64,000 nucleotides of DNA from Halichondria panicea. Lineage: Eukaryota > Porifera > Demospongiae > Suberitida > Halichondriidae. The notes below the pieces were generated by a model, which searched no databases, was not told the DNA's origin, and was given only the letters and a program-made list of their open reading frames with translations. This document shows positions 1-61,020 of the stretch, in pieces; positions within the stretch are counted from its first letter, which is position 1, and every line of letters starts with the position of its first letter. The stretch spans positions 13,388,198-13,452,197 of the forward strand of contig NC_087377.1 in the NCBI RefSeq assembly GCF_963675165.1, given 5' to 3'. A program made the position numbers and the translations under genes.

Positions 1-261
1 CAAACACAGAATAAAATTGAAGTCATGTGTTGAGTTGATTCTTGTGCTAAAAGAATTGTTGTATTCTGTACCACACACCTAGTGCTTGGCGTATTGCTTC
101 ATGGGGTGTGGAAGTGCCGGGGGTTCGTTGTTAGGGGCTGGTTTAGGGGGGCGGGGTGGAACCATCTCACCAGTTCTGCATGGGGAAGAGAGAAATAATG
201 TATAGCACGAAGTTAAGAGTAGATAAGAGTGATTAGTAGTTATAGTAGTGTAGTATACAGA

Positions 262-491: not shown

Positions 492-1755
492 GGATAATCA
501 GTTGAGATTCTATACTCTAATATTTGAACATTGTGTCATCACTGATAGTAATTTGTTATTGCAGACATGCTGATTGCGTAGTTTCACACACAGGTCACTG
601 AGGTCAGTGCTATAGGTCAACAACTCTAATAAACTCATAGAATAATGACGTAGACGTAGAGTTCGGCAAATTCATAGAGCAGTGTATAGTCCAGTTGCTC
701 ATTACCCCAACCTAGAGATACCACCACCTTTTAATTCGTTGGCTTATTAATTTTACTTATGACAACTTTAGTTGTGTGCTAAGGAATAAACTAGCTTCCA
801 TACAATTGTAGTGGTAAACATTAAATACAGTTATTACGAATTCGAATTAAGAATTACGAGTCTGTGCCAGTAACTGCACGAGTGCTGCCTGCAGAATCAT
901 TCAACTTACGATTTAGGAGGGCGTGAGGGTGTGAGTGTATTTAGTAGTCCCGGACTGTCATCTGTCACTGTGGGGGATTTAGAGGGGAGGAGTGGGGTTT
1001 TGTCGTACTTATACGAAGTATTTGGTGTTGCCAAGCAAGAGTTCAACTCCACAGGGAGACAACCTGTGTGTATGTGTGGAGCAAAGAATGTGTCATTGGA
1101 ATGATTCTCGCCATTTTAGTAGCGTAAAAACACAACTATGTAGTGCATGTACAGGCACTTAAGCTCTCTAAAATTCAGCAGAATACAACTACTTCTTGTA
1201 CAATAATATAAAAATAGTGGGTTTGGCCATTTGGCAAATCAAGGCGGGGTCACCAAAATTAAAAATCACCAGTTTTACTTTCGTACTCAGCCCCAGTACA
1301 TTGCACAAGATCAGCATGATAATTATGATTGTCAAATCAAATAGTTCAATAGCCTCATTGAAGTACATTGTGCTGATGATAGTCCCTACATTGTTCAGCA
1401 TGTGAACTATAATTATTGTCTACAAATACTATAAGTGAGGTAACATACGTACTACACAGAAAGCTTGTGTGTCAGCAAATAATAAATTACATAACGGACA
1501 CTGTCAGGTAGGTGTACACTATTATAGCATGGCATGCATGGTTTCCTTAAGGAATACAATAAGGAAGCATACGTACATGAACATACAATGTTACAACACA
1601 TACATACCCAATTAGAGTTCATTAGGTGTCTGATCTAGGTACAAATACTCAGCATAATTATAACTGCAACCACTTGAGATACAAGACTCTAACAATAACA
1701 GCAACTGATAATACAAGGAAAGGCCATGAAAAACATCAGTGATAATCATCTAATG
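492..1755. other. Intergenic, no gene seen
   Basis: AT-rich sequence with only short open frames (up to about 70 codons, on both strands at 1189-1405) that show no splice context, signal peptide or recognisable motif. I see no coding feature here. Confidence 0.5.
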
Positions 1756-2855: not shown

Positions 2856-3818
2856 TCAAATATTAAATTCAAGAAAAAGCAGGCAGTGTATGCACCGACT
2901 GTACTCACTAGTCCCGTGAATAGTCATGAGATCCTTTGACAGTTGCTCTTCTCCGATCTTACTGAGATGATCAGCCAGCTCCCTCCAGGTTATTGGTTGT
3001 TCAGAGCAACTCCATTGGTTAATCACCTCCGTTAAACAACCAGCACTGTCATTGCAACATGACTCCTCAATCTAAGTTGAGATTAAGGAAACAAGTTACT
3101 TCCATTTTGCCAGTAGAAAACAATGGTAAATCAGGAAATTTATTTTACACTGAAAGAACATGTAGCTCATACCATCAACCTATTAACAAGAGTACATAAG
3201 GAGAAGAGTGTGTCGAACTACCGATACTTCTACACAAAAACTGTGCACAAAGTAACATGACTTTGCACGTGATGAAGTATTGTAAACTTACTAGTAATCT
3301 CTTCTTAGTAGATGTTAACCGTGGCGTTTTAGGGGTGTGGTAAATTAAAAAATTATATGTTAGCTAGCTAGTCGTTCGCGTTTAGCGATCAGAGCTACTC
3401 ACTGCACACTGATAAAATCATCTAAATAGAGACAATTTAATCCTCTTCACTTGCACTCTTCACTCACTATTAACAAATTCTGTGTGTTGCGTAATTATGC
3501 GCAAACACCATCAATTGCGAGTTGCTCACGTGCAATTGACAGGATATCACGTTACTTTGTGCACAGTTTTTGTGTAGAGGTATTGGTAGTTCGACACTCT
3601 CCTCCTTATGCATGTACTCTTGCTATATATCCATCTGTATACTCCTGCTCACACTTGCAATTGATAATCAACATACCTCTTGATGGAATTACGTACCTGT
3701 TCAATCATTGTCTCTGGCAGCCTCACACTCTCAGCAAGCTCCCTCCACTTGTGCTTCATTGACCGGATCTGCACCAAGGCCTGGTCAATGTCCAGGAGCT
3801 TGTCCACATCTTCCGGGG
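2856..3818 (-). other. Death domain, split over two exons of the receptor
   Basis: Exon 3697-3818 gives helices 1-3 (PEDVDKLLDIDQALVQIRS, then WRELAESV and PETMIEQ). Exon 2856-3071 gives the rest (IEESCCND, then LTEVINQW, WRELADHL, EEQLSKDL). The spacing of the two W-R-E-L-A blocks, the W in the middle helix and the terminal L-x-x-x-L pattern match the death-domain fold of receptors and adaptors. The phase-0 junction falls after MIEQ. A foldback repeat (3188-3622) occupies the intron between them. Death domains self-associate; the partner is unknown. Confidence 0.8.
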
Positions 3819-6681
3819 CTGAGTATGTTTGTTGGTGAGAGTACACTGTATATATAGTGGGTAACGAATTATTTATCCCAAGGAAATTAACTGACAATTA
3901 TAGAGTCAAATTACCATAACTCAAAACAACCAGAACAGATAATTCTACATATACAAAACACTTCTTGTTAATCACAATATTGGGGAAATATAAATATAAG
4001 CCTATACTGAAAGGAGAAGACTATCTTGTATACAACTATCAATACCATTGACAATGATTATTCAAAGCAATGACTCATCCACACAAACAGGCTCACCTGT
4101 TGGGCTGGCTGGGAGGTTGGCTGCCTTGGCTGATTGTTTCTTAGTGGCATCAACATCCACAGTAGCGTAGGTCACCTGATGTTGGTTTACTGCGGCAGTA
4201 CTAGTCGTGTTGTTTTTCTGGCTGGAGCTAAGGACAGCATAGACGACTGGCTCCAATGTGGCCTGTGGTGTCAAGAAACAAGCAGAGTAAAGAAGTACAT
4301 TTCATCATTGCTCTGCGTTTACACAAACAAAAGAATGCAGTGTGTACTGCCTTCAACTAGCACTCATTTCCACTAACTAACTAATTTGGTGCGGTTATAA
4401 TAATTATACAAACCTATAAGCAAACGCCCTATAAAGTCACAATAATCTCACTATAATGAATGAACACATGCACTCACCACATTACCCAGCTGCCCATAGC
4501 CAGGTAGCCTCTGAGTGCTCTGCAGTAAATAGAGTATAATGATTGAGTCAAGATAAATTCTTCGTACCTGTCCACTGTTCATTACACTGTATCCCTCTGC
4601 ATTGACACCTATTTTCTGCATAACAATATATATATATACAAATAATGGAGCTATAGGAATCCAAAAATCATATGCATACAAAAATGTATGTGTATAGTTG
4701 GCGAGGTTCACTATCTATACCTTTTCACTGTTGATGGTAACCTCATCGTAGGTTAATGAAGCAGGGTTCTATGATAAAAAATAATAAATCTGCAGATTAA
4801 ATTCACAAGTGTCAAACACACCAAATCATGAGTAATCCTACTGTAATCTTCTTCGTCTGCTACTGGAGGCTGGTACTACATTAAAGAGAGTTAAATATTT
4901 TGTGCAAGAGTTAGTAGAAAACCGTATAAGAGCTTTCTTAGGCCTATTCTGTTGTAGCTCACTATAAATATATAGCGCCCTTTAATAAAAGCCATGGACA
5001 TAATGTACTGAGACAATACAACTAAAACCTACATTAAATGTATCCATACTGTCATTTGATTTGAGTCTTATGCTCTCTGTGAAAAAAGTGGTATTACGTA
5101 TATATATAATAGTCATTCTAAACTCACCTTTTCCCATTCGTCTGAGAACTATCAACAGAACTATTGCTCCTAAAATGATGAGTAACAGGGCTACTATACC
5201 ACCAATAACACCTCCAGCTACAGCAGCAACGTTCCCACGTGTTACTGCCACACCTATACAAATCATATAGGTCATTATTATATGCAGTATATACATGCAT
5301 GCATGCAGGTATGACATTAAGAACAAAAATAAACTTATAAGTATGTATATAAGTTAAGATGTAGCTTACTGGGTTCATTTCTGCAGACAATCTCCCCCGT
5401 GTTCCTGTCCCACTCTCCTGTAGCTAGACAGGTGACAGTCATTATTCCCTCAGGGAACAGTCCACCGTCACACTGGAAAGTCACTTGTGTACCAGGAATA
5501 GCTGGTACTGAATGATCACTGATGGTGCCATTATGTAGTGGGGATAGTTGAGCTGTGCAGTTTATTGGAGGAGCTGGAGAGATGCATGAAGAATTATCAA
5601 TACAACTAAGACGTACTAACTCACTAGTTGTGGGATAAGATAGAGTAAGTGGTGTACACGCAATAGCCTCAGGGTCTGGATTCCATATCAATGTGCTGCC
5701 CTCACATGTCACCATTGTAACAGGAGATACATACCCAGTGTCACACTGGATGGTTACCATGGATCCTGGCAAACTGCTGGAGACTGGTCCAAAGGCTCCG
5801 TTCATGGGGTTGGTCAACACAGGACAGCCACCTGAGAAGAGGGAGTCCGTATTGTGTACATTGATTACATTCACTGTCAACTCACCAATCCTAAACCTGC
5901 ACCCAGCTGTTGTACTGTTCCCAGCACAGTTGGTAGCCACAACACTGACAGTGTAGTCCACATTGTATTGAGCAGTCCCAGTGACAGAAGTGGATGTGAG
6001 GACAGTAGCAGAGAGCTGGGCCGGAGGTGAGATAGTCACTGTGTAGGTGGGGTTATCTCTACTACCAGTCTCAGTAGGAGAATCCCACTGTACGGATACA
6101 CTAACTTCATTGGCTGAGCTGCTTGAAACGGAGTGTCTTAGGATAGAAGGTAATCCTGGTGGATCTATACATGTATATATATATACATGTTTATAGCTTA
6201 TGTACAGACAAAGGACGAGACACTTACCAACCAATTGGATCGTCGAAGATCCTATAGTGGTTAGAGTAGGCAGTGGGTCCACACAGGACACATTGATCCC
6301 ATTCTCTGCTGTTCTTGACAGAGTAGACGTTAAAGTAGTGTCGTTGAATGCAATCAGTGTTACAGTGTAACCTGATACAACATTGGCTACATTGAGACCA
6401 GAGGTTGTAGGACGGATAGTGATGCGATCCGCATCTGATGGTATCCATCTCAAGGAATCTCCAGGAGCAGTGCAGGTGAAAGTGACTGTTTCCATTGGAC
6501 ATGGTCTCTCCACACTCACTGAATATTGTGCTGTAAAGAAAATAGGCAAGATTTACCACCTTCATCACAATTCCAATCTTCGAAAAGTGATTATTTTTAG
6601 TTTGATACCATGTCCAGTGATAGCACTCCTAGAAGCAATATAGAATATGACCACAAGGTCGCAGTATGGCCAACGAATCAT
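2856..6681 (-). CDS. Ig-FN3-CCP-CCP receptor with ITIM-like tail and death domain
   Basis: Fourteen exons by hand: 6609-6681, 6228-6530, 5886-6164, 5625-5831, 5370-5573, 5128-5253, 5033-5076, 4822-4875, 4721-4768, 4568-4615, 4478-4519, 4097-4262, 3697-3818, 2856-3071. The lengths sum to 644 codons without a frame break. In order they encode a signal peptide (MIRWPYCDLVVIFYIAS), an Ig-like domain (Cys-Trp-Cys), an FN3 domain, two four-Cys CCP/sushi domains, a TM segment (GGIVALLLIILGAIVLLIVL), a tail, and a death domain (KWRELAESVRLPETMIEQ through TWRELADHLSKIGEEQL). The tail motifs LTYDEV, VVYAVL and VTYATV fit the V/L/I-x-Y-x-x-V/L ITIM pattern, and YSRI, YSVM and YGQL are further tyrosine sites. 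It is probably a type I plasma-membrane receptor; inhibitory or death signalling is inference. The 3' end is uncertain: a good donor (GTGAGT, just after ATTCACGGGACTA near 2889) could splice to another exon instead of reading to the TGA at 2856. Confidence 0.82.
3188..3622. repeat. Inverted-repeat element inside the death-domain intron
   Basis: Arm 3188-3262 (contains GTCGAACTACCGATACTTC) is inverted at 3549-3622 (contains GAGGTATTGGTAGTTCGAC). About 75-bp arms flank about 285 bp of AT-rich spacer. The element lies wholly in the last intron of the minus-strand receptor, so it does not break the coding sequence, although its hairpin would be transcribed. Confidence 0.75.
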
Positions 6682-7292
6682 TTCAGCTAGGACACTGAGC
6701 TATAGCTACAATGTATTGAGTCTACAGAACACAGTCATATGCATTATTAAAGTATATTTTTATTTCCTGCCCAAATAAAAAATTATCTATCTAAAGTCTA
6801 TTTATAGACAATTTATTTTAGATCCCACACTAGAGTGAAATTACCAGTATAATTCCCAGGGAATTATATGCTTGAGGACACACATGACTCATGTTTCTAG
6901 TCTATATATATAGTTAGCCAATGAACAGTAAGATCTAGATAATGTGCATTTAGTATCCATGTCATGTTGCTAGAGTTAGCCACTATATTATTGTAGGGAG
7001 GCAGCTAGCTTGTTAATTCGTATCATATAGCTCTACTCTCTATATAGAGTCTCTTATATATATATATAGCTGAACGTACCTATACTAGATAGAGCCATGC
7101 TAATTATGAGCAAGCTATTTATAGTTAATTGCTAGCTAGCTATATCGGCAAAAAAGATTTGCAAGTTTTCTATATGAAGTAGGAAAATCCGATCAAGTAT
7201 GATGCCAATGTCAATGGTAAAAAAAGGCCCATTTAGATCTAGATCTAGATATTAAGTCATATTTTTTAACTCTCTGTGTTCAGGTAGTATCA
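6682..7292. promoter_or_regulatory. Shared 611-bp spacer between divergent receptor-type genes
   Basis: The initiator codons of the minus-strand death-domain receptor (6681) and the plus-strand Ig/FN3-like gene (7293) point away from each other across this AT-rich spacer. It would have to hold both promoters. Short palindromic TA and AGCTAGCTA tracts occur (near 7063-7145) but I see no clear TATA box for either gene. The regulatory role is inferred from position only. Confidence 0.4.
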
Positions 7293-8334
7293 ATGCGTTG
7301 TTCAGCGCTACTCTTAGGAGTGTGCCTAATCATAAATGTGTCTGGTCTGAGGATCACCTTTACGTCATCTCTGCAATCAACAAACAGAATCTACTCTTGT
7401 CCGGGGGAGATTGTTACCTATGTCTGCAGTGGAAATGGAAGTGAAATGGACCTATATGCCCCACCATACGTTTCTTCGACCTTTCCTTTGTCGTATGACA
7501 TTAACGACACTCCGGGGTTAAAACTTGGTGGCTCCGGCCCTATTGTAACGAATCTTTCTTCGATTAGTCCTCTCAAAGCAAATTTGGTAGTGCAAAATTC
7601 ATCGTTGCCAGAGTTTTCTGTTCATTGTATTGTTCGTGCACCACATTCATCTTCAAAAAGAGATGAAACCCGGTACAGGCCTTCAGGTACAATAGAATCA
7701 GCACTTTAATACAGACTCGCAATCCACTTTATTGCCTGGGAGGGAGTGTATATAGTGGGGACATGCATGCATTGATTTGTATAAATTATACATAAGGCAC
7801 GGTCATTATATACTGCAGGTTTTCCTTTAGATGTGATTTCTCTGAGGACATTTCACGAATTTAACACTGCTGGTGTTACCTGGAGGAATAATGATGGAAA
7901 TTATGATCCTAGTCACTACACAGTCCAGTTATTTGCAAATAATACTCTGACTGAATCCACTGTTATTTCTGCAGAAAGCAATAGATCAGTAGCAGAATTT
8001 ACTACGTCTTTCAGTGGCACTGTAGATGTCTATGCAAAGATAACAGTGACGTCCAAGTGTAACCAGACATCTAATGGAGTTTTCACTGACACCTTTACGA
8101 TAACTAGTGCAAGTTAGTTGCTAATAATAATAATTATGGCTTTTCTGTCATACAAACATATTTTAAAGCTACATATTAACTACATGGAGTAGCTGTTCAT
8201 CTAATCATCATGTCTTGTGACCACGTACTGTTACTACTACTTCATTTATTCATTCAGGTACAACAACGGAGTATGTGTTCTGGTTACTCCTTTCAACTGC
8301 AACATTCGTCCTATACAGCAATAGTATAGTGTAG
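7293..8334 (+). CDS. Secreted or GPI-anchored Ig/FN3-like surface protein
   Basis: Three exons, 7293-7686, 7819-8112 and 8258-8334, with phase-1 junctions and no frame break, give 254 residues. The start is the ATG before a clear signal peptide (MRCSALLLGVCLIINVSG). Exon 1 has an Ig-like pattern (YSCPGEIVTYVC, later FSVHCIV) resembling exon 2 of the neighbouring receptor (PCPMETVTFTC). Exon 2 resembles a divergent FN3 strand pattern (YTVQLFA, VDVYAKITVTSKC) with several N-x-S/T sites. Exon 3 ends in a hydrophobic stretch (EYVFWLLLSTATFVLYSN) right at the stop, as in GPI-anchor signals. There is no tail for signalling, so it could be a decoy, co-receptor or ligand of the divergent receptor (inference). 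Confidence 0.72.
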
Positions 8335-8700
8335 GTGTATATCTCTGCTTCAAAACTACAGCCTATATATATAGGTGTGCTCAGGAGTGCACTCCTGGTG
8401 TACTATAAATATTTTTATTTTCATGTAGCAATATTTTTTCATAGCTGATTTACTGTGATGTCTTCTCTAATGTATAGCTATAAACATTTACGACTCTTAC
8501 ATTTCTTTATTTTGTAGTACAATCCTACACTCTATGTTTTGTGCATGTACACTAATGCAGTGAGCGAGGAGAAATTTTTTTCAACTGCATTGCTGCTGAG
8601 ATTCCTTGTGGGAGCGTGCTGCTTTCGATATTGAACTCTGTGGTAGATTGGAGAGTGTCATGAATGTGATTATTTATGGGGGGGGGGCTTTTTATATAAG
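8335..8700. other. 3' flank of the Ig/FN3-like gene
   Basis: AT-rich sequence with a G9 homopolymer near 8679-8687. There is no obvious coding signal and no unambiguous poly(A) signal. Confidence 0.4.
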
Positions 8701-15283: not shown

Positions 15284-15895
15284 CTAGAAGCCTATAGAAG
15301 CTGTTCGATTTTCGTCACATAGCGACCATTGAGCAGTTATGGTAAAGACCCACCCACTCACTATACAATATGCACCCATTGCATATTCATCTGCAATGTC
15401 GTAGCTGGTCAGGAGTTCCTTTGCCAGTTGCTCCTCTTTGATCTTACTGAGATGATCGGTCAGCTCCCTCCAGGCTGGTCGTCCAGAGCAACTTTTATCA
15501 TCCATTGGTCAATCACTTCAGTCAAGCAATTAGCATTGTCATTGCAACACGAATTTTCAATCTAGTGGAGAAGATGAGATAGTATAATTGAGTGGGTAGT
15601 AGTACGATTAAACTAACAACATAACGGCACATGTATCTTATGAAACCACTCAAAGTAAGTAATGAAACGGCAAGATTTAAGAATTACTTAGTCACCACTT
15701 TTGGTAAAGACTATACAGTGGACAAGTAATAATCACACTGAGCCAAAACACAGACGGTAAAGATCTGCTATACAATAAACATTACGTGAGACAATAAAGG
15801 GGTATACATGTACACTTACCAAATGGCCGGTAGCAGTGTGGGCAGGTGTGGTTGTGTCTCCTCTGGAGGGAGGTGGACCAGAAACTCTCTCGTAG
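15284..15895 (-). pseudogene. Broken copy of the receptor tail and death-domain exons
   Basis: Exon 15820-15895 reads YERVSGPPPSRGDTTTPAH, a tail exon with a tyrosine motif, and ends at a GTAAGT donor. After an acceptor near 15562 the sequence reads IENSCCNDNANCLTEVIDQW, matching the second death-domain exon of the 2856-6681 receptor. It then loses frame: a 7-bp insertion relative to that gene (near ATGATAAAA) puts WRELTDHLSKIKEEQLAKEL in another frame. The first death-domain exon was not found nearby, and the expected donor after GACATTGCAG is mutated (ATGAAT). I read it as a duplicated, decayed paralogue. Confidence 0.6.
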
Positions 15896-20244: not shown

Positions 20245-22548
20245 CTACTGACTTAAAGGATCCACGTAGTCGTACTCGTGTAGTAGTTCACATCCCCCTA
20301 TCTGACCCACAACACCTGTTAGCTGACCATACGACTGGTTAGACTTCAGCAATATCTGCTCCTGCTCAATATTTATTAGCTCAGGATGCTCACTCATTCT
20401 CTTTGCTTTCGGTTTCACTTTGATTTTGCTATACTGGTGACTCAATGATAAATCTTTTTGGCTGTTGCATTCTGGAGTAGCATATGTTGGGCAAGCAGTC
20501 GTAATACTCTTGTCTGTGTGCCCGTAAGACTCGTTAGCTTTTAACTCAACTTCTATCATATCCGAGACATTGCCTTTGACTTTTGCTAGATCAACCTCAT
20601 CGTACAAAACACTGTTGGAATGCTGACCTGATTTACTTTGTTTGGGAAGTGTGGAGGATGGACTTTTTCTGCTAGGTGTTGTAACTATGCTGTTGAGGAA
20701 AGCCTTGTGATTTAATTATTCAAATGACCAATTAACATATTGTATGAAAGAAGTAAATCTATGCATAATGTATCACATAGGGCTTACCAAGTATCTTTGT
20801 TTTCAAATCGCAATGTGAATTCTGAACAACACATGTACAAAGTGTAGTGTTCAAGACAAAGTTGCAACATAATAATTAATGAAGCTTTAATGAAAGTGAA
20901 ACTTACTACGATAGTTGTACACTCCGTGTCCGATAAAGCTCCAAATAGTAATCAAAATTGTTATTCCCAAACATGAAATGACTAACATTGTATCAAGCAT
21001 ACTGTCGCGAAGTGTCATCCTAACTGGACTGCATTGTGTACCTATGGGGATTTTTTAAGAATAACTTTACTTAATGAAAACATTGTTTACCATAGAAAAT
21101 GATCCCAAAGACAAATAGTGAAGAAATGCAAATGAAAAGCAGTACGAGTAGGATCACCATAGAAACAACAAGAGATTTCTTTCTAGAGACAAACACCTTC
21201 ACCTTACAAAAAGCTGCATTTCCAATTTTCAAAGTTATTATTTTTAGTTAATGGTAACTCACCTCCTATAAGTAGTAATAAGAAATGAATGACTGTCAAG
21301 AAAAGGTACAGTGAAGTTGTGCTAAGAATGGCAGTTGATTTAAACTCAACAGGGATTCCATCTATTTACAATTAACATTATAGAGGCATTATTGACTGAA
21401 AACTTGAACCTAACCTGTAACAGACATATTTTCTTTGATAAGTAAATTTTTGTTTGCCTTCATTGAAAACGCAAATGTGTGGACTGTACCAGGACTTGAA
21501 TGTGGAATTTTCAACACCTCCGTGCCATTAATAGGAGGCTGATTACTCAGTGTTGTGTGTTGTATAGTACAAGTAGAGTCGTTTTGAATGACTGCACAAC
21601 TGACCGAATAGAGACAGTTAGTTGAATTAACTTGAGTACGAAAGTAATCTTCACTTTTGAGTCCTATAGAATTAATAACTGCACTATAAGAAAGCACGAT
21701 GTAATATATTCATGTCTCACCTATTACGTATACAGATGCGTACATTTTTGTATTAATCCTAGACGATCTAGTATTAAACAAACTCAGTTCAATGTTGTGC
21801 TCTCCCATAATGGTTCTTATGGAGGAAAATCTGGCTTCGCAGAACAGACCGACACAAGTTTTCATAATTTTGACCTCATCTGATCCATTAATTGTCACGG
21901 TGTACATGAGAATTGAAGAGCATATCAGCTAAAGAGGTTCCATAGCAATTTGTAAATTTTATTACACTAAAACTTACTAAATTCCTTAGTTGTACTTTTA
22001 CGCTAGTCAAAACACCAAACTGGTAGATGGCAATAATTATCGTATTGACAGGATCCCAGACTATAATATCAGATACCAGTATCCTTATATAGGTAATGAC
22101 ATCGCCGCATGTTATGCTAGTAATGTTCTGCTTTTCTAGCGCCAACAGATCAACCGTAAGAATGGATGAATAATTTTCCATGTTTGACTCAAGAGAGCGA
22201 GAAATATTGACCAATTGAACGCTTAAGAATGCAGGATTGTTGTTATTAGTGATATTGCTAAGAAAAATTTGCCAAGAAGCATCCACAAGAATTTCGAGGA
22301 TGTTCACATATTCGGTTGAGTTAGGGCTACTGTAACGCCAACGTAATCCTACGAGATCCACTCCTTCACAGATCAGCTTAACTCTAGCCCTCTCCGAGCA
22401 AGCCTCACTTTTGACATTTAGGTACACTTCTGATGCTGTGCCAAATTTAATACGTGCGGTAAATAAACTAGCTGGCTGCACAAATGTACTTACCTTCGAC
22501 AAAAATAACAGTAGAAATTACTAAGAGAGAAGTAAAAAACATTGTCAT
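20245..22548 (-). CDS. Ig-like receptor with three hydrophobic exons and tyrosine-rich tail
   Basis: Nine exons by hand: 22494-22548, 21978-22435, 21721-21928, 21415-21678, 21263-21361, 21091-21213, 20907-21041, 20788-20821, 20245-20689. They are phase-consistent and give 606 residues. The start is the first of two in-frame ATGs before a signal peptide (MTMFFTSLLVISTVIFV). The ectodomain has an Ig-like pattern (VKLICEG, LRWRYSS, ITSITCGD) and many N-x-S/T sites. The next three exons each encode a hydrophobic segment: YLFLTVIHFLLLLIGG, then MVILLVLLFICISSLFVFG, then MLVISCLGITILITIWSFIG. The last exon is a tail of about 148 residues with VLYDEVDL (ITIM-like), ESYGHT, QYSKI, QSYGQL and EYDYVDPL. 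LYDEV also occurs in the death-domain receptor (TYDEV). The membrane topology is unclear. I do not recognise an established family name. Confidence 0.78.
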
Positions 22549-39023: not shown

Positions 39024-40790
39024 CTAATTTTCGAGTACCAACGTGAGGAAGGCAATGAGCAGGAACAGTAGCAAGCTAGCTTTAAGCATCTTGGAACTTG
39101 AGCCCGGAGTAGGCCTCACTGTTGGCTCAATTGCCGAGCATACCCTCATATCTTCAGTCGAAAGCTCACAAGTTTCATACTTTCCGTTAATCTTATTTTG
39201 AGTGCATTGAGTATCAGCAGTACATACATGGCATTCTCCAATGTTTTGTGGATCATAGTTACAGTCTGGTATAGCACTATCACTCAGAGTGGCCTGGATA
39301 AGAGAATCGTACCTATACCCCCAGTTCTCACTTGTACTATATTGCTCATTCGGTGTTATAAGAGGAAAAAACGGTACCATATAGTCATTCAAATTATGGC
39401 CAATATGACCCCCACTGTTGGGTTGGTATGGAGGTCGATTGCCAGATGAAAAGCGTTGCATCCAACTTTCAAGAATTCGATCAATGTTGCTGTGATGCAG
39501 ACTAAATACAGGGTCATTTACGGCAGATGGTGGAACGCTCATGTGCCCATGTATCCAATCATGAACATTATTATGTAATCGTTGAAATTTTGACGACACC
39601 TGAGGCCCAACACACAAGTCGGAAGTTGAGCACATCAAACTCCAACCTTCCAGTCTACTCCTAAAACTACCTCGTGGACTGTCCTGACGATACTTGCCGT
39701 TAACATTTGGTACATCATATTGCGGGGCAGCTATCGCTATTTGAATCTCACGTGGATTTGGTAGGTATGTTTCAGCATTCCCTCTTTGAAGCTGATTGTC
39801 TGCACTACTCTTTAAATCATTGATAGGGTCACAAGGAGCCCAATACTCCGTACAATAAGTCGGATTTTCCTCTATCCAATAAGCTATTTCATCGTTTTCA
39901 GTCTTTCGTCTATATGTGATATCACAAACCGTTTTCCAATTTAATCCATTTGCAATATTTTGGTATACTCCTGATCTTGATGAAAATGTTCCAAAATATC
40001 GTTCATCAAATACCGAAAGGTCATTGCTCTCCCACTCCCAGTATGGTAAGCCAAAGTCAGGATTGCCTAGCACTCTTTGAAGTGCTCTTTCCACGATCAG
40101 CAGATATGTTCTGTGCCAGATTGGAAAATTTGACCCAGAATGTGCAAAGTCAACATTTATACCCCCATTAAGTACTTGACATGCCTTCGAGGCATCTCGG
40201 GACACGTGGTGGTGTATGTAGACAAGAAAATCATATGTAGAAACATCTTGCAGTGTAACTCTGCCAGATGCAGTTGGTGGCTCTTCAGTAACAACACTCC
40301 AATAACCCATTTCACTCTTTAGCATGAGCATACCGTTCGTAACACTTTCCTTTTCAGAACTCGATAGACTGCCAAAACTTCTTCGAACCACTAGTGTCTT
40401 ATTTTCACAATTTTCTCCAGACCAACCAAATGCACACTCACTGCAATCGACGCCATAGAAGTTTCCTGAGCAAATACAAACATTTTCAAACACCATCGTC
40501 GGCCAAAGATATCTGCTATCAATCGTTCCTTTTTGCAAAACATTCGGTGCATTTCTTAGAACTGCGACAATTTCTTGATCAGCACGATCAGATTGATCAT
40601 ATGCTGTTGAAGTAACGTTCACACAATCTCCTCTACCTCTGTCACGATTGCAGTTGTTAGGACAACACACTTTATTCTGAAGGTTTTCTGGAGTGTTGCA
40701 AACTGCTGAGAACTGTGCAAAATTGCAGTTTAGAAGACACACAAAAATAATTAGTGCCAAAAGCATTTGAAGTAGGTTTAGAGATGCCAT
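39024..40790 (-). CDS. Tyrosinase, secreted/membrane type with EGF-like module
   Basis: One uninterrupted exon of 588 residues. It encodes a signal peptide (residues 1-25), a Cys-rich stretch (31-56), an EGF-like module (CSGNFYGVDCSECAFGWSGE, about 107-128), and a tyrosinase domain. The type-3 copper centre is complete. CuA has His in IHHH (193-195), DFAH (217) and WHRTYL (226). CuB has His in LHNNVHDW (406, 410) and FSLHHSNIDRI (432-433). A terminal hydrophobic stretch (MLKASLLLFLLIAFLTLVLE) suggests membrane or GPI anchoring. The family oxidises phenols to quinones, for pigment, cross-linking or defence. The layout (signal, Cys-rich/EGF, copper sites, C-terminal anchor) resembles vertebrate tyrosinase and TYRP proteins. 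Intronlessness is unusual beside the finely split receptor genes. The paralogue is at 53111-54908. Confidence 0.95.
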   Translation of the reverse strand: MASLNLLQMLLALIIFVCLLNCNFAQFSAVCNTPENLQNKVCCPNNCNRDRGRGDCVNVTSTAYDQSDRADQEIVAVLRNAPNVLQKGTIDSRYLWPTMVFENVCICSGNFYGVDCSECAFGWSGENCENKTLVVRRSFGSLSSSEKESVTNGMLMLKSEMGYWSVVTEEPPTASGRVTLQDVSTYDFLVYIHHHVSRDASKACQVLNGGINVDFAHSGSNFPIWHRTYLLIVERALQRVLGNPDFGLPYWEWESNDLSVFDERYFGTFSSRSGVYQNIANGLNWKTVCDITYRRKTENDEIAYWIEENPTYCTEYWAPCDPINDLKSSADNQLQRGNAETYLPNPREIQIAIAAPQYDVPNVNGKYRQDSPRGSFRSRLEGWSLMCSTSDLCVGPQVSSKFQRLHNNVHDWIHGHMSVPPSAVNDPVFSLHHSNIDRILESWMQRFSSGNRPPYQPNSGGHIGHNLNDYMVPFFPLITPNEQYSTSENWGYRYDSLIQATLSDSAIPDCNYDPQNIGECHVCTADTQCTQNKINGKYETCELSTEDMRVCSAIEPTVRPTPGSSSKMLKASLLLFLLIAFLTLVLEN

Positions 40791-42600
40791 TTGCCTCTTA
40801 TAGCACTAACAGTTAATTGTAATAAATTTAGATATCATGCAGCTTATATGTAACGAATATTCTTACGAATAGGTGTGGTGTGGTGATGATTCAACCCACA
40901 TTTATGTTATGAATGTCATTTACATTGTCAGTGTAAAAAATTTAACCCCATGCACTCGCTATTTCCATGCATGAAGGTTCTTAAAGATTTTCCTGGCCAA
41001 TCCTATATAGCAAAACCGGATAAAACATTTGCAATGTGCAAGTTGCTAGGATTGGCCGAGGAAAACACCAATGACCAGCAAACATTGTCTTCAATGCGTT
41101 TTTATCCGACGAATAAATTAATCACCTGATCGATGCTTTTTGTGAAGGCTTAGAAACAGCACATACAGCAGGGAACTAAATGGAAAATTCAACAAAATCC
41201 AGAAGTATACATGGAATGCTTTCTTGCTAACAGCCCTTTCAAGAGGGCTTTAAGCATTGTATGTGTCCAAACACGCACGCTATGTGCAAGGGAGTATAGC
41301 CATTGATCGTCTTTAGATTGATAGGTGGTTCTGGAAAGATATAGTTTGGATTAGCTCCTTGCATTGGCTTACAGTGAGGAGGCTAGTGAAAGTAGGAATA
41401 TATTGTTTGGTTTCCAAGCAACAAATACATTGAAATGCGTGCCACAAATTGGTTTAATTATAATTATTGGCAGTTGTTATCTTACTGCTCTTACTCCAAT
41501 GAGCTTTGTATTATATAATTACGTTACATTGCAAAAAAGTTTCAGGTATAGCTTCGGGAATACTTCGGCATATAGCACATAATTATGTGGCTGCTGCAGG
41601 CCTAATTAAAAAATTTGCCCATTTCGTGTAGCTTCACAAAATAGTTTGGGAAAACTTTAATTCCTGAACTTCCTTAATGTGAGTATAGCTTCACGAAGCA
41701 GTTCGGGTATAGGACTTCCTGAAGAGTTAGAACCACAAAGCCTAACTTAACGAATCTTTATATGGCATATAAATGTACAAATCTCGGCACAAGAGATTGT
41801 GTGAAAATGAGCTATTGTTATGAGTACTCATAACATGGTTTACCCAATTTCATACGATGTTATTTTGTAGCCCTTTGAAAGGCCTAACTACTGATTGCTT
41901 TCTGTCAGATATTTCTTTAGAAGAAAGCATGAGCGTCATGTAGCCTTACATAGTTATAGTAATTTTACCGAACATGGCTATTAATTTTAATAGCTATAAC
42001 TTTGAGCACTCACTCAGTTTGTCCCAGTTTTAAATAGCTTGAACAACTCGCTGTAAATGAACATTAATTTGTACCGTAATAAATTATTAGTTCAGTATCA
42101 CACGAACAATATTTATAAAATTATACTTTCTTTCGTGATTTGAATAATTAATACTGCATTGTATAGATGATACCGCATGGTAATTATGAGGTGTGTCTGA
42201 GTGTGCGTGTGCTGCCACACTAGCGTCAATTAGCTGCAGCCATTCGTCTAGTATGTAAATTATACAGTCTCCGTTGTCAAGTAATTGTATTGTAGTTAAG
42301 CAGTTTGCGCATGCGCACTAGTATCTAGACACTTTTAAATAACATGGGAGAGGCAGTGCCATTACTTTATAAGGACCAAGTGTTTATTATGTCTGCGAAA
42401 TAGCCAAACAAAAAAAGATGTACAATGAAACACTTTAAGGTATGGCATAATGCCTTTAGTATACGTAACCATGCTGTCCCAGGGAACATGTGAGTTTGCC
42501 AGTAACAATCCTTAGAATTAATGAATGGCAATTTCTTGAACTCTATCCAACATTATAATGGGTGTACTCCAAAAACTAATTAATATAATTATGGTGACAC
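40791..42600. other. Tyrosinase 5' region and intergenic, no gene seen
   Basis: The first 130 bases, including GGTGTGGTGTGGTGATGA (40870-40887), are shared with the 5' flank of the second tyrosinase (about 55008-55025), so the promoter was duplicated with the gene. Beyond that I see no coding feature. Phrases with CTTCACGAAGCAGTTCGGG recur in short form at 41530-41700. Confidence 0.45.
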
Positions 42601-44109: not shown

Positions 44110-44955
44110 CACTGATTGCATACTCACCTGCAATCTCATAGTTCCTTTGCAAGTTGCTCCTCTCCAGTCTTACTGAGATGATCAGCCAGCTCCCTCCATG
44201 TTGGTCATCCAGAGTAACTCTTTATATCTATTGGTCAACCACTTTTGTCAAGCAACCAGCATAAATGTCATTGCGACATGAATCCTCCTCAATCTAGTGG
44301 AGAAAATGAGAGTGGGTAGCATGATTAAACTAACAACATAACTAGCGTATCACTTTTATTTTGCAAGTAGTGTGACAAAACAACATGCAGCATACAATGA
44401 AAAAATAATACAGTCTTAATGAGGATGTGTAGTGTAAATTGTTTTCGCATAGTCAGCATGACTTTTCCAATGAGCCAACAATAACTCTTGACAACATCAA
44501 CAGCTAGTACACCTCAAGTTAACAGTACAGGCCGGGAGGGTGGTTGGATTACTGAATTACTGAGCTGTACTATTAATCATGAGCAGTGCATGTTGTTACT
44601 TAGGAGACTCTATGATGATCGAGGAATTGGTCAGTTTAGAGGCTCTTTGACCAGCCAAGTCCATGAGCTACTGTACGTGTATCTTATGAAACCACTCAAA
44701 GTATAGTGATGAAATGGTAAATCTAACACTCAACACTTTTGAAAGACTAATACAGTGAACAAGTAATAATCGAGCAAAAAAACAGCCAGTATAAAGATCT
44801 GCTAGAGAATTAAGGGCTGATAAGGGTACCATTATTTGATGGACATGATTTATTACCGCATGGCTGGTAGCAGTGTGAGTAGGTGTGGTTGTCTTCCGGA
44901 TCCTCGGTTGTCTTCCGGATCCCTTTGAGGGGAGGTGGACCAGGAACTCAGGGGA
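44110..44955 (-). pseudogene. Third relic of the receptor tail and death-domain exons
   Basis: 44118-44298 aligns with the second death-domain exon (GGGAGCTGGCTGATCATCTC and the preceding Cys block). It carries an in-frame TAG where the intact gene has TGG (CAATAG) and several small indels. It keeps a donor-like GCAG|GTGAGTATG that the 15.3-kb copy has lost. 44868-44950 is the tail exon with an internal duplication of TCTTCCGGATCC. It cannot encode a protein. Confidence 0.55.
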
Positions 44956-53110: not shown

Positions 53111-54908
53111 TCAGAGTATCAACGTGAGGAAGACAATGAGCAGGAACGGTAGCAAGCTAGCTTTAAGCATCTTGGAACTTGAACCCGGAGTAGGCCTCAC
53201 TGTCGGCTCAGTTGCTGAGCATACCCTGATATCTTCGGTCGAAAGCGAGCAAGTTTGATACTCTCCGATACAAGCTATCGCATCGAATTCGTATTGAGTG
53301 CATTGAGTAGAGCTATCACTGCTATGAGCAGTACATATACGGCATTCCTGAATGTTTTCTTCAGTATAGGTGCAGTTTGGTATATCATTATCACTTATAG
53401 TAGCCTCAATAAGATAATCGTACTCATACCCCCAGTTATCACTTGTACTATATTGCTGATTCGGTGTTATAAGAGGAAGAAATGGTACCATGTAGTCTTG
53501 CGAATTATGTCCAATATGACCCCTACTGTCGGGTTTGTATTGAGGTATTTCACCAGATGGAAAGCGTTGCATCCAGCTTTCAAGAATTCGATTGATGTTG
53601 CTGTGATGCAGACTAAATACAGGATCATTTACGGCAGATGGTGGAACGCTCATGTGCCCATTTATCCAATCATGAACATTATTATGTAATCGTTGATACA
53701 TTGGTGATACCTGAGGCCCGACACACAAGTCAGAAGTTGAGCATATCAAACTCCAACCTTCCAGTCTACTTCTAAAACTATCTCGTAGACTGCGCTGACC
53801 ATACTTGCCGTTATCACCTGGTGCATCATATTCTGGCGCAGCTATCGCTATTTCAATCTCACGTACATTCGGTAGGTATCCTTTTAAATAAGCATTCCCT
53901 CTTTGAAGCCGATTACTATTCCCTAAATCAGTGATAGGGTCACAAGGAGCCCAATATTGCATACAATTACGCGGATCTTTGTCATTCCAATAAGCATCTA
54001 CTTCCCTTCCAACCTTATCTGTAGTTTTCAGTCTAAATGAGATGTCACAAACTGTTTTCCAATTTAATCCATTTGTAATATCTTGGCGTTCTCTTGATCT
54101 CGTTGGCAATGTACCAAAATATCGTTCATCAAATACCGAAAGGTCATTGCCCTCCCACTTCCAGTATGGTAGGCCAAAACTAGGATTGTCTAGCACTCTT
54201 TGAAGTGCTCTTTCCAAAATCAGCAGATATGTTCTGTGCCAGACTAGAAAATTTGGCCCAGAATGAGCAAAGTCAACATTTATACCGCCATTAAGAACTT
54301 TGCATGCCTCCGAGGCATCTCGGGACACGTAGTTGTGTATGTAGACAAGGAAATCATAAGTAGAAACATTTTGCAGTGTAACTGTGCCAGAAGCAGTTGG
54401 TGGCTCTTCAGTAACAACACTCCAATAACCCATTTCACTCTTTAGCATGAGCATACCGTTCACAACATTTTGCTTTTCAGAATCCAATAGACTGCCAAAA
54501 CTTTTTCTTTGAACGGCTTGTTTTTTCATTCCACAATTTTCTCCTGACCAACCAAACGCACACTCACTGCAATCGACTCCATAGAAGTTTCCTGAACAAT
54601 TACAAACATTTTCAAACACCATGCATCGTCGGCCAAAGATATCTGCTATCAATCGTACTTCCTTTCTCCATAACATTAGATGCCAGAATTGCGACAATTT
54701 CTGGATCAGAACCATTAGATTGACGCTCTGCTTCTGAAGCAACGTTCACACAATCTCCTCTACCATTGCAGTTGTTCGGACAACATACTTTACTCTGGAG
54801 GTTTTCCAGAGTGTTGCAAACTGCCGGGAACTGGGCAAAATTGCACCTTAGAAGGCACAACAAAATAACTAATGCCAGAAGCACGTGAAGGGGATTTAGA
54901 GATGCCAT
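53111..54908 (-). pseudogene. Second tyrosinase copy, disrupted by a 4-bp insertion
   Basis: This is a close paralogue of the gene at 39024-40790, also intronless, in the same orientation and about 14 kb away. The first frame (54908 down to about 54625) gives the signal peptide MASLNPLHVLLALVILLCLL and the Cys-rich region through RYLWPTM. There an extra TGCA, or equivalently ATGC (within 54621-54625, CACCATGCATCG against CACCATCG in the intact copy), shifts the frame to a stop shortly after. The other frame continues with the EGF-like module, CuA (DFAHSGPNFLVWHRTYLL), CuB (LHNNVHDWINGHM, FSLHHSNINRI) and a hydrophobic end. All copper ligands survive and the long frame is otherwise intact, so the lesion is recent, polymorphic or an assembly error. 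Initiation at an internal ATG would lack the signal peptide. Confidence 0.85.
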
Positions 54909-56825: not shown

Positions 56826-57470
56826 TGGACCGGGAGTGATCATGCATGTGTTTGAGGCTGATGGTGGAACTCTAACGTCCAGGACCACTCTTATCAACCT
56901 CAGTGAGGTAAAGTCAGTATCTGTACTGCATGCAGCAATGTTACCTGCATGTATACTGCTACCAATTAAAATGGTATTACATGCAGTTGCATGCAATACA
57001 GCAGACAATCTCTGTTGCTGGTGAGTATATTAACACACAGACTTTTGTTGCACATGCTGCTGATTGCATGTATAGGTAATTCAACCTCTCCATTAAACCC
57101 AAGAATATCATATCCCCCACTCAAAACCAGCTCAGCTCCCTCCTCTATACTGGTGGTGTGTCTGTCAGCTATATCCTCGTCATTTCTCCAACACCTCTCT
57201 CCGGATCACTAGTCACCGTGGAGACCACCTCGGCACCGTTCAATATCTCCAACATTCCCTGTTGGACATGACCATCAGACATGACCATCAGAGTAGTTAA
57301 CTGTGCAATGGCCGTGACAACATGCATGGTGATGATCCGTTCTATTGATTAGTTCATATTATAGTTGTGCTTGTTCCTAATAATTTTGTTTTTCTAATAC
57401 AGTTACCTGCCCCTCCAACCCCAACACCTGCGAACAGAGTGACTATCAATGGTTGTGAAAGACTATATGT
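56826..57470 (+). pseudogene. Decayed Ig/FN3 exons of a receptor, upstream of the retroelement
   Basis: 56836-56908 reads HVFEADGGTLTSRTTLINLS before a GTAAAG donor, like the end of an Ig-like domain. At 57075-57268 one frame reads TGGVSVSYILVISPTPLSGS and VTVETTSAPFNISNIPC, typical of the FN3 domains in the receptors at 2.9-8.3 kb. Its phase at the acceptor (TATAG at 57067-57075) does not match, and the domain ends early. A short Pro-rich exon start follows an acceptor at 57404. CCP exons of the same strand lie at 62050-62516, beyond the inserted retroelement, so they may once have been one gene. Confidence 0.5.
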
Positions 57471-57926: not shown

Positions 57927-59264
57927 ATGAGTACACGATCTGGGAGAGTCTACAACGCATCTATGGCACAGGACGATGGCAGCATGGAGCGGATTCTACA
58001 GATGCTACTGGAAGAACGACAGTCGCGAGACCAGGAGAATGCTAGACGCGATGCCGAACGAGAGACTGCACATCAGCTGCAGATAAGGCAGATGCATGAG
58101 CAGATGGAAGCCATGCGGGGCTGGATGGAACAAGAGCGAGCTGGCCGAGAAAGCAGATGGAGGTACGGTTGTCGAAGTTATCGGAACGAATGATGTCGGT
58201 GTACGAAGTGCCTGAGGATCAGTGGGTCTTCAAGCTTGCCCCCCAGTTGACAGGAAAGGTGCAACAGGCGTATGCAGCATTGGGTGCGGAAGAGGCAGTT
58301 GACTATCAACGAGTTAAAGAGGCGATTCTGAGACGGTACGATGTTGTAGGCCTGGGCACAGGGTTAGACTTATGACAGCATTCAGCCTAGTCCATGTTTT
58401 GTTTAGGATTAGGGTTAGGGTTGCCCTAGGCCTATAGACAGCACATATATACTTATACTACAAGTGGTTTAGTCACAGTGGGTTGTGGGTTGTGGTTCAT
58501 TATAATGTTTGGCCAATAAAATGTTTTGTAAAAGACAGTTACAGGAAGTTATGTATAGGCTCACAGCACAGGGTTGATTACAGCTTAGCATCAAAATCTT
58601 GTTTAGGGTGAGGGTTATTGGTTGGGTTAATTAATGTTAATTGGGTAAGTAAAATGCATGGCAGAGGGTTACAGTGCCTAATTAACAACAGGCCTGGACT
58701 GAGCGAAGAGTGTTATCGCAGACGATTTCAAACGACCCGAAAAAGCGAGCTAGCAGTGAGGCTAGCAGACCTGGCAAAGAAGTGGATGGCCGGATGCGAG
58801 ACTTTGGAAGAAGTTTTGGACAAGCTGGTTGTTGAACAGTTGTTAGACACTCTGGGGGCATATCTCAAAATCTGGTTGTCGGAGAAGAAGCCCAAGTGTG
58901 GAAACGAAGCTGGAAGCCTGGCAGATGATTATGTGCAGGCGAGACGACGGTGCGATGGTGTGGATCGGGGACGGACAAAGGAGCAGACTGGAGAACCGAG
59001 AAAATGTCACAAGTGTGGAAAGCCTGGACATTTCGCTAGGGTGTGCTCAGAACAGAAGGAAACTTCAGAGAGGCTGAATTCGGACAAGAAGGAGAGCCCT
59101 AAGTTTGAACCCAAAAAGGTAAAATGTTTTAATTGTGGTGTATTGGGGCATATTTCTTCCAGGTGCCCAGAGAAAGGATTTTATTGTGCCGATCAGTTGA
59201 CAAAGCGGTCAAACGGTGGCGGATATTTACTGGGTGCTCGAGAACGATGGTGCATAAGAACCTG
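57927..59264 (+). pseudogene. gag: Gypsy gag, interrupted
   Basis: The frame opens MSTRSGRVYNASMAQDD with a charged coiled-coil-like stretch. It loses frame near 58155, continues in another frame (YEVPEDQWVFKLAPQLTGKV, YAALGAEEAVDYQRVKEAIL), and stops at 58375. About 315 bases of unrelated sequence (58376-58690, with telomere-like TTAGGG words) follow. Gag then resumes (ECYRRRFQTTRKSELAVRLA) and ends with two CCHC knuckles, CHKCGKPGHFARVC and CFNCGVLGHISSRC. Gag coats the RNA genome in family members. This copy is non-functional. Confidence 0.85.
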
Positions 59265-59630
59265 ATAGATAAGACGAAGTATCTGGAAGGAGAAGCAGTA
59301 ACAATACGATGTGCTCATGGAGACACCGCATTATACCCCTTGGGTGAAGTGGAAATGAAACTGGATAATAGGCCCCTGACAGTTGTGGCAGCAGTGTCCG
59401 AAACATTGCCTACATCAGTGTTGCTGGGAACGAATGTTCCAAATTTGCGTGGACTGTTGCAGGAAAACCCAAGTATCAGACATACAGCTGGCGTGGAAGC
59501 AGTGTATGTGGTGCGAACACGTGGTCAGACCAGACAGGAGGAAGCCGAAGATGCTATGCAACTCCAAAAAGAAAAAGAGAGTGGAGTAAGTACCAAAATG
59601 GTGGATGACGTTGAGACGACAGCTGAGTGA
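59205..59630 (+). pseudogene. Gypsy protease remnant lacking the catalytic Asp
   Basis: The frame reads FTGCSRTMVHKNLI where retropepsins have D-T/S-G followed by C-S/A-R-T. The aspartate appears to be lost in a small deletion at 59218-59235. Downstream words (GEAVTIRCAHGDTALYPLGE; LPTSVLLGTNVPNLRGLL) fit the retropepsin flap and the second conserved block of gypsy protease. It is out of frame with gag. Confidence 0.7.
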
Positions 59631-61020
59631 ATTCGATGACGATTTGTTTGAAGAGTCAAAACGGAATAAACCCTACTTGAGCCGGAGTCAGAAGAGAACA
59701 AAGAGGATAGAACATGGCCTAGTGCGTGCTCAAGATCCCCCACTAAACAAAAGTGAGGTACGTGGTATTGTGGACAGTAAAGAACTACGCAAGTTACAGC
59801 AAACTGACGACACTCTGAAGCATGTACGAGCTGAAGCCGCAGGAATGACTGAGCCAAGTAATACTGGGTTCTTTGAACGAGATGGATTGATTTATAGACG
59901 ATGGGTGCCAGCTAAGCGAGAGGCCGAGGAGTATCGAGATCAGTTGGTGTTGCCAAATGACTATCGTCATAATGTTTTACATATTGCCACACTAGTGGAC
60001 ACCTTGGAAAGAAGAAAACGGCCAGGAGAGTTATGGACAGGTTCTATTGGCCAACTTTGTTTGGTGACGTTAAAGACTATTGCCGTAGCTGTGAGCAGTG
60101 CCAGAAGTGTACCCTGAGGCGAGGTGCCAGAGCCTCATTAGTGCCACTCCCCTGTAATCTCCACCCCGTTTAAACGAATTGCCATGGACATCATTGGCCC
60201 ACTGCCAAGGAGCCGCTCAGGAAACCGGTACGTCCTTGGGATAATTATGTGATTATGGAACTAGATACCCAGAAACGATCCCAATGAAATCGATCGATGC
60301 GGAGCACGTGGCTGAGGAGCTAGTGAAGGTCTGTGCACGGGTAGGCCTCCCGAAAGAGATCCTCACAGATGTTGGCCGAACTCTACCGCCTGCTTGGAGT
60401 AAAAGCGATACGAACTAGCCCTTATCACCCCCAAACAGACGGGTTAGTCGAACGATTTAATCAGACACTGAAAGAGATGCTCAGAAAATCAGCAGCAGAG
60501 GATGGTAAGGATTGGGACAAGCTAATCCCATATGTTTTGTTTGCATACAGAGAAGTCCCACAAGAAAGTACAGGATACTCCCCATTTGAGCTGCTCTATG
60601 GCCGTGATGTTAGAGGACCACTGGATGTATTGAAGGAGGAATGGGGTTTGAACACAAAGGCTGATGAAAGTATTGCCGCCCATGTTCTGCTAATGCGAGA
60701 AAGAATGGAGAAGATGACTGACTTAGTGGAAAAGAACCTTCAGGCTGCACAAGTCTCAGAAGCGTTACTATGATCGAGGCACCAGAGAGAACATTTTAAA
60801 GCCTGGAGAACAGGTCCTCGTGCTACTTCCGACCACAAGCTCAAAATTGACTGTGAGATGGCAGGGTCCCTACGAGATTCTACGATCGATAGGCAAAGTG
60901 AACTATTTGGTAAACCTACACGATCGGCATAAAAGCAAACGAGTATTCCACGTGAATATGCTTCGAGAATGGCATGCACCGACAAGCACTAACTACTTTA
61001 TTGAAGAGGCGACCGATGAC
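59605..61020 (+). pseudogene. Gypsy integrase, multiply frameshifted, with GPY/F-type end
   Basis: The linker and zinc-binding region start at about 59605 (VLPNDYRHNVLHIA carries the first His pair); frame changes follow near 59990 and 60050. The catalytic core is split: MDIIGPLPRSRSGNRYVL (60185-60240) holds the first Asp. ILTDVGRT (60358) keeps the second Asp but the following block is deleted. TSPYHPQTDGLVERFNQTL (60415-60471) holds the Glu. A frame change near 60770 leads to VRWQGPYEILRSIGKVNYLV and FHVNMLREWH, the GPY/F module. The integrase comes before the reverse transcriptase. Confidence 0.85.

Follow-up and report, generated by a model that had tools for sequence, protein, structure and literature searches.

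Can a single receptor chain carry an immune-type ectodomain, sequences resembling the immunoreceptor tyrosine-based inhibitory motif (ITIM) and a death domain (DD)? This question was raised by the gene LOC135348062 of the sponge Halichondria panicea (genome 131 Mb, 39 contigs), which lies on the minus strand of a 64,000-nucleotide stretch at C1:13388198-13452197, here called the window. An initial reading of the letters of this stretch (the sequence-only reading) had proposed that the three elements are so joined, and this central claim is upheld here. On genomic evidence the gene almost certainly encodes one chain in which an ectodomain of Ig-like, FN3-like and CCP domains is joined to ITIM-like motifs and a DD, based on the exact match of the model to RefSeq, the linkage of the motif and DD exons in 15 of 17 loci, the signature of purifying selection on both, and the occurrence of a divergent locus in which the motif–DD unit is doubled.

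Gene model and domain content of LOC135348062

The 14-exon chain of the sequence-only reading was rebuilt and proved to be open and phase-consistent, with GT-AG at every junction, giving 652 amino acids (aa); what that reading had missed were two exons, and its length of 644 codons should be 709. A 16-exon model built from the window DNA (window 6681-79) was identical, letter for letter, to RefSeq isoform X2 (P0001, 709 aa). Exons 1-12 of the rebuilt chain are identical in P0001 and the DD exons are present there too, with the acceptor of exon 13 at 3845 in the rebuild or 3818 in RefSeq X2. Exon 14 stops at 2909 with a gtgagt donor, and RefSeq treats 2908-2856 (EYSRCIHC...) as intron. The protein continues through the two added exons (1063-910 and 175-79) into a proline-rich C-terminus (SRPPK, PPRPPKPAP) that had gone unnoticed, and the terminal position formerly given to the DD was abandoned, since both RefSeq and the paralogues run on past it. 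The order of domains in the 709-aa protein is signal peptide, Ig-like, FN3-like, two CCP, transmembrane helix (TM), tyrosine motifs, DD and proline-rich end.

Four Pfam families had been anticipated on this chain, and two of them scored above their cut-offs: Sushi, in two stretches (E 3.5e-9), and Death (E 7.5e-5, 23.2 bits against a cut-off of 22.6; 3.4e-6 for the DD alone). The fn3 match (E 0.0034, 18 bits) fell under its cut-off of 25, and there was no Pfam Ig match on the chain, although structure prediction gives the N-terminal domain a beta-sandwich fold, with a predicted local distance difference test score (pLDDT) of 75-94 across residues 21-130 in blocks of ten. The near-invariant residues of this Ig-like domain are C44, W53 and C107, and its variability peaks mid-domain, at 1.6 bits for residues 55-74 versus 0.4 for residues 25-44.

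The sequence-only reading had staked its case on a DD being detectable by profile or structure, and both approaches recovered one, with six predicted helices in addition to the Pfam match. Pfam Death was also matched at E<=0.01 in 9 of 11 relatives, and in a Foldseek search ranks 1-18 were all death-domain entries (best E 0.008), the best folds including the DDs of Fas-FADD, TNFR1, RIPK1 and TRADD as well as those of ankyrins. A sequence search of the PDB with the DD gave a single chance-level match (E 0.58), and the window DD, which is split by an intron, was absent from the best 150 of 503 candidates in a whole-genome Pfam Death scan.

Linkage and conservation of the tyrosine motifs and the death domain

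All three motifs that had been pointed out (LTYDEV, VVYAVL and VTYATV) are present in the cytoplasmic tail of this TM receptor, where they conform to the ITIM consensus [ILVS]xYxx[ILV]. Between the TM and the DD of P0001 there were three such matches, compared with 0.3 expected in shuffled sequences (p 0.002), and across 11 long-tail (DD-bearing) proteins the excess had p values of 0.00005-0.006. A Pfam SIT (SHP2-interacting adaptor) match in one of 11 relatives (E 7e-4) was not counted as evidence.

With the tail and DD as query, the order ITIM exon, first DD exon, second DD exon recurred across C1:11.4-13.8 Mb. Linkage was counted for the window gene and 16 of 18 loci, the remaining two, L055 and L056, being treated separately. 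The ITIM exon and both DD exons were found in 15 of these 17 loci, with L053 and L054 having the first DD exon only. None of the 15 DD-bearing loci has lost V[VI]YA[AV]L or VTYATV; LTYDEV is present in 11, with LTYNGV in one more. RefSeq models are predictions, and the chain is known here from genome sequence alone, so it could be argued that tyrosine exons and DD exons of neighbouring genes were fused by prediction. We consider such an artefact highly improbable: exon order and strand are constant in the 15 loci (with a wider gap, ~6 kb, in L044), which led us to reject a joining of neighbouring genes, the phase is continuous through the 16-exon chain, and the motif–DD order is kept in a subfamily whose DDs are 38-50% identical to that of the window.

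The two members of that subfamily, L055 and L056 (C1:14.43 and 14.51 Mb, about 1 Mb from the window gene), each have two DDs downstream of CCP exons. In L055, as judged by eye with splice phases partly checked, the order is Ig-like, CCP, CCP, TM, VSYAMV, DD, LPVV, VDYTTV, DD, LPVEL, so that an ITIM-consensus motif stands directly before either DD in two successive units (VSYAMVDIEAS-DD-LPVV and VDYTTVDFEAT-DD-LPVEL). We regard this repetition of tyrosine motif, DD and LPV as the best indication that the motif and the DD work together as one unit. The DDs of L055 and L056 are each contained in a single exon; that of the window family is split by a phase-0 intron.

Across 105 pairs from 15 loci, the pooled Nei-Gojobori ratio of nonsynonymous to synonymous divergence (dN/dS) was 0.19 in the DD and 0.23 in the ITIM blocks. 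The 8 loci with an alignable ectodomain (28 pairs) gave 0.19 in the DD, 0.29 in the ITIM blocks, 0.62 in the Ig-like domain and 0.69 in the FN3-like domain; all these values are descriptive, because the pairs are not independent. Within the Ig exon, dN/dS was 0.78 at residues 50-80, 0.51 in the rest and 0.55 at residues 50-66, which gives no support for positive selection in that exon. When the window gene was compared with L039, 863 kb away, silent-site divergence was 0.22-0.24 in the ectodomain and ~0.04-0.05 in the DD and ITIM blocks, a pattern that would follow from exchange or homogenisation of the signalling ends alongside continued divergence of the ectodomains.

Further DD matches were observed elsewhere in the genome. 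A second group, 21-28% identical to the query across the tail end and DD, lies at C5:2.73-3.09 Mb, and 28 of the 148 Death-domain matches listed fall at C12:1.04-1.67 Mb, which may reflect DD genes arranged in tandem or a repeated element.

Two tail classes in a receptor cluster on C1

The sequence-only reading did not include the short-tail sister receptors of LOC135348062. The tail allowed 37 of 68 proteins to be classed, each of them a named RefSeq entry of H. panicea: 11 have the long tail with a DD, 26 have a short tail and none has both. The short tail comprises ~50 residues with two tyrosines (GPVYEEV...NQAYGP[LV]), ending in GPVYEEVSPKEEIELNTNQAYGP[LV] or a variant. Its spacing is usually YEEV-x13-YGP[LV] (spacing 13, V at +3), with longer variants in P0015 and P0030, and it does not conform to the canonical immunoreceptor tyrosine-based activation motif (ITAM; YxxL/I-x6-12-YxxL/I). 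The tail of L055 also holds GPVYSEVS, a near-match to GPVYEEVS of the short tail; this may be a trace of a single ancestral tail from which the two present types arose.

In an Ig-FN3 tree of 34 proteins the long and short tails were intermixed, with six label changes, at least three of them forced by starred branches, and a single clade of long tails was rejected (approximately unbiased (AU) test, p 0.021). This tree must be read with caution, as shuffled labels gave equally low values in 72 and 53 of 500 cases, long branches are present and the bootstrap is unsettled. Subject to those cautions, the family shows the domain arrangement of paired receptors, namely a shared ectodomain type and mutually exclusive tail classes that do not form separate clades. 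A short-tail query returned at least 150 exon matches (the best 150 of 286 candidates), two of them with a stop and all at C1:11,249,328-14,927,683. These positions define a cluster of ~3.7 Mb on chromosome C1, in which at least 150 short-tail exon matches lie beside ~15 long-tail genes, and LOC135348062 is very probably one of the long-tail receptors in an extensive clustered family organised like paired receptors.

Features of the window

The coordinates of the exons of LOC135348062 and of two orphan fragments of the second DD exon are collected in Table 1. No tRNA or Rfam matches were found in the window.

Table 1. Exons of LOC135348062 and related fragments, in window positions, with the evidence for each.
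Feature	Position	Strand	Evidence
Exon 1, signal peptide (MIRWPYCDLVVIFYIASRSAITGH)	6609..6681	-	Identical to RefSeq P0001; helix 5-20 predicted
Exon 2, Ig-like	6228..6530	-	AlphaFold 2 (AF2) beta-sandwich; Ig/FN3 proteins among Foldseek matches; near-invariant columns; entropy
Exon 3, FN3-like	5886..6164	-	Weak Pfam fn3; precomputed PF00041 on relatives P0011, P0027, P0033, P0038
Exon 4, CCP/Sushi 1	5625..5831	-	Pfam Sushi, two stretches in protein
Exon 5, CCP/Sushi 2	5370..5573	-	Best Pfam Sushi stretch 300-345
Exon 6, predicted TM	5128..5253	-	Hydropathy 3.39; model helix 365-401
Exons 7-8, juxtamembrane, EDYSRI	4822..5076 (5076-5033, 4875-4822)	-	Rebuilt chain and RefSeq match
Exon 9, LTYDEV (ITIM consensus)	4721..4768	-	Exon in 12/15 DD-bearing loci
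Exon 10, YSVM (YxxM)	4568..4615	-	YSVM/YSTM exon in 11/15 DD-bearing loci
Exon 11, PGYGQL	4478..4519	-	Rebuilt chain and locus comparison
Exon 12, VVYAVL and VTYATV (both ITIM consensus)	4097..4262	-	Intact in 15/15 DD-bearing loci; dN/dS 0.23
Exon 13, DD first half	3697..3845 (3818 in RefSeq X2)	-	Pfam Death; dN/dS 0.14
Exon 14, DD second half, ends gtgagt	2909..3071	-	RefSeq match; six-helix models; DD structures head fold lists
Exon 15, LPVELN..PLLPSKSP..SRPPK	910..1063	-	RefSeq match
Exon 16, PPRPPKPAP..KQYAKH, stop	79..175	-	RefSeq match
Orphan fragment, DD second exon	15398..15561	-	tblastn
Orphan stop-broken fragment, DD second exon	44139..44287	-	tblastn

Several other stretches of the window were noted. 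Minus-strand frames at 20245-20715 and 21888-22517 resemble another receptor by eye, with an Ig-like stretch and a tyrosine-motif tail (LYDEV, NESYGHT, NQSYGQL, HEYDYV) in which NQSYGQL is similar to the short-tail NQAYGPL; they gave no Pfam match. Just upstream of LOC135348062, and head to head with it, lies a gene-like stretch on the plus strand (7221-8340) with a signal-peptide-like start and more frames, the first of which had no Pfam match. Also inside the receptor cluster are a frame with a Pfam tyrosinase domain (39024-40805, minus strand, E 4.7e-37) and what appears to be a close copy of it (53111-54745, minus strand). Finally, a retroelement-like stretch at ~58600-62090 on the plus strand, with zinc-knuckle, integrase-like and reverse-transcriptase-like frames recognised by eye and G+C of up to 47%, has pieces of FN3 and CCP sequence from the receptor family on either side (57149-57331 and 62061-62507), as if it had been inserted into an old copy.

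Proposed signalling and its alternatives

Because the ITIM-like motifs exceed chance and candidate partners are encoded in the genome, we propose a scheme for the long-tail receptors. The candidates were recognised by the coordinates of profile matches only: an SH2-SH2-protein tyrosine phosphatase (PTP) order at C3:8.404-8.406 Mb, an SH2-SH2-kinase order at C9:5.255-5.259 Mb, which we take to be of the Syk or Shark type, a row of three neighbouring SH2-kinase loci on C2, presumed to be of the Src type, and a death effector domain (DED) followed by a DD at C7:1.623 Mb, both of these matches being partial. Dozens of clustered PTP-domain matches were also seen at C4:0.04-2.6 Mb, a large expansion of tyrosine phosphatases.

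In this scheme, a ligand would cluster the receptor and a Src-family kinase would phosphorylate the ITIM-like tyrosines, which would then recruit an SHP-like phosphatase, while the YxxM motif may add PI3K; we put SH2 recruitment by the long tail at slightly better than an even chance. Clustering would also gather the DDs and so seed their assembly with an adaptor that has a DD, and for an output through DD oligomers we judge the chances to be evenly balanced. The PPxRPPKP region would bind SH3 proteins, and the state of the tyrosines would gate DD assembly, either permitting an inflammatory or death output or holding it off. The short-tail sisters may act in opposition on related ligands, probably as activating partners, although we suggest such paired function only tentatively. 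Taken as a whole, a paired-type receptor with a long tail and tyrosine-gated DD assembly is the reading that we favour, with reasonable though limited confidence.

The main rival to it is an endocytic or phagocytic receptor whose role would be to take up microbes and not to set thresholds for immunity. The tyrosines would then serve as AP-2 sorting signals of the YxxPhi type, endocytic proteins with SH3 domains would dock on the proline-rich end, and the DD would be a structural scaffold, as it is in ankyrins. LTYDEV, YSVM, PGYGQL, VVYAVL and VTYATV all fit the YxxPhi consensus, ankyrins supply some of the best structural matches to the DD, and a CCP/FN3 ectodomain would be suited to scavenging. 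YxxPhi signals do not need I, L or V at position -2, however, and that residue is kept in V[VI]YA[AV]L and VTYATV in all 15 DD-bearing loci; moreover, neither the joint recurrence of the tyrosine unit with the DD nor the existence of two tail classes is explained by endocytosis, which we regard as unlikely to be the main function.

It is also conceivable, although somewhat less probable still than endocytosis, that the DD is the sole output of an inflammation or death sensor, of the TNFR/Fas type but with another ectodomain, and that the tyrosines merely tune it. The DDs of Fas-FADD, TNFR1, RIPK1 and TRADD among the best folds and the DED-DD arrangement on C7 are in line with such a sensor, as is the ITAM/ITIM-like motif reported, in the part of the source available, at Tyr291 within the DD of CD95 (PMC4572867), a precedent which also makes the earlier statement that ITIM and DD receptors are normally separate families too strong. 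The tyrosine exon is nearly as conserved as the DD (dN/dS 0.23 versus 0.19), which speaks against such a sensor. In addition, no TNFR repeats were found on the chain at Pfam E<=1, a search that gave Sushi and weak fn3, and a TNFR-type death receptor was rejected on that ground. LOC135348062 resembles CD95/Fas as a DD receptor with an ITIM-like motif and in its nearest folds, but differs from it in that the motifs lie in separate upstream exons and not inside the DD, the ectodomain is not of the TNFR type and the end is proline-rich. Death receptors reportedly bind SHP-1, to go by the title of a reference.

Comparison with known receptor systems

Vertebrate paired receptors (KIR, LILR and FCRL) are like the H. 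panicea family in being clustered, with one ectodomain type on two tail classes and the ectodomains intermixed. Their activating members mostly depend on an adaptor and on a charged residue in the TM; in the sponge, by contrast, tyrosines are present in the short tail itself, and a DD is found on the tail of inhibitory type.

Among the closest known systems are the fester co-receptors (FcoR) of the fuhc allorecognition locus of Botryllus schlosseri, which, according to the sections consulted of a review, have Ig and Sushi ectodomains and tails with ITIM, hemITAM or core Y-x-x-I/L/V motifs, in inhibitory and activating members (PMC12065747). Judged by that description only, both families consist of type I receptors encoded by gene clusters, with Ig and Sushi domains outside the cell and long tails bearing tyrosine motifs, but the FcoR order is V-Ig, Sushi and two C2-Ig, unlike the Ig-FN3-CCP order of H. 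panicea. The main text of the review never uses the term 'death domain', and no Botryllus names were among the protein matches listed for the LOC135348062 family. The same partial source cites candidate allorecognition genes with ITIM/ITAM motifs at the Hydractinia alr locus (PMC12065747). The likeness to these cnidarian Alr proteins, as candidate ITIM/ITAM-type receptors, is likewise one of description only. Hydractinia Alr proteins are not known to have a DD.

As to whether the same domain order exists in other sponges, the only named homologue outside Halichondria among the matches listed was EMCRGX_G012343 of Ephydatia muelleri (P0068), a weak match (E 4e-4) that shares FN3 domains, a predicted TM and a tyrosine- and proline-rich tail including TYAVPDL, but has no Sushi or Death match at E<=0.01. 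In the portion available of a paper on the H. panicea immune repertoire, the main text contains neither 'death domain' nor 'ITIM', with DEATH appearing in a figure legend and among the domains of kinase genes (PMC8242945). A 2018 sponge paper, as far as its available text goes, gives FnIII-Sushi genes and DEATH genes separately (PMC6208332), and the available part of a 2025 review of the invertebrate Ig superfamily presents sponge members as adhesion and recognition molecules (PMC11999971). Literature searches on ITIM with death domain in sponges, on immunoreceptor tyrosine-based motifs in sponges and on Amphimedon death domains found no such receptor in titles or the starts of abstracts, subscription journals being mostly outside their scope, and a search on sponge allorecognition clusters found nothing relevant.

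ITIM receptors of allorecognition loci and DD receptors are both known; what appears to be new is a clustered, two-tailed family of immune-type receptors in which the inhibitory-type tail has a DD and SH3-ligand-like sequence. As a bolder conjecture, which we think improbable, the 3.7 Mb region of C1 could be a sponge self/non-self recognition complex of at least 150 short-tail and ~15-17 long-tail receptors whose shared Ig domains are hypervariable in the middle. In that case the long-tail receptors would be checkpoints whose ITIM-DD unit turns engaged 'self' into phosphatase-held silence and the loss of that engagement into DD assembly, and, if this were true, inhibition and killing would be two states of one molecule. 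A comparable sponge cluster would extend the ITIM/ITAM design of cnidarian and tunicate allorecognition loci, as described in the sections consulted of the review, to one of the earliest-branching animal lineages (PMC12065747), and it would give concrete candidates for self/non-self or friend/foe discrimination in sponges. As a recurrent and constrained unit, the combination of ITIM-like motifs, DD and SH3-ligand-like sequence would offer a compact test of how phosphatase signalling may be coupled to DD assembly.

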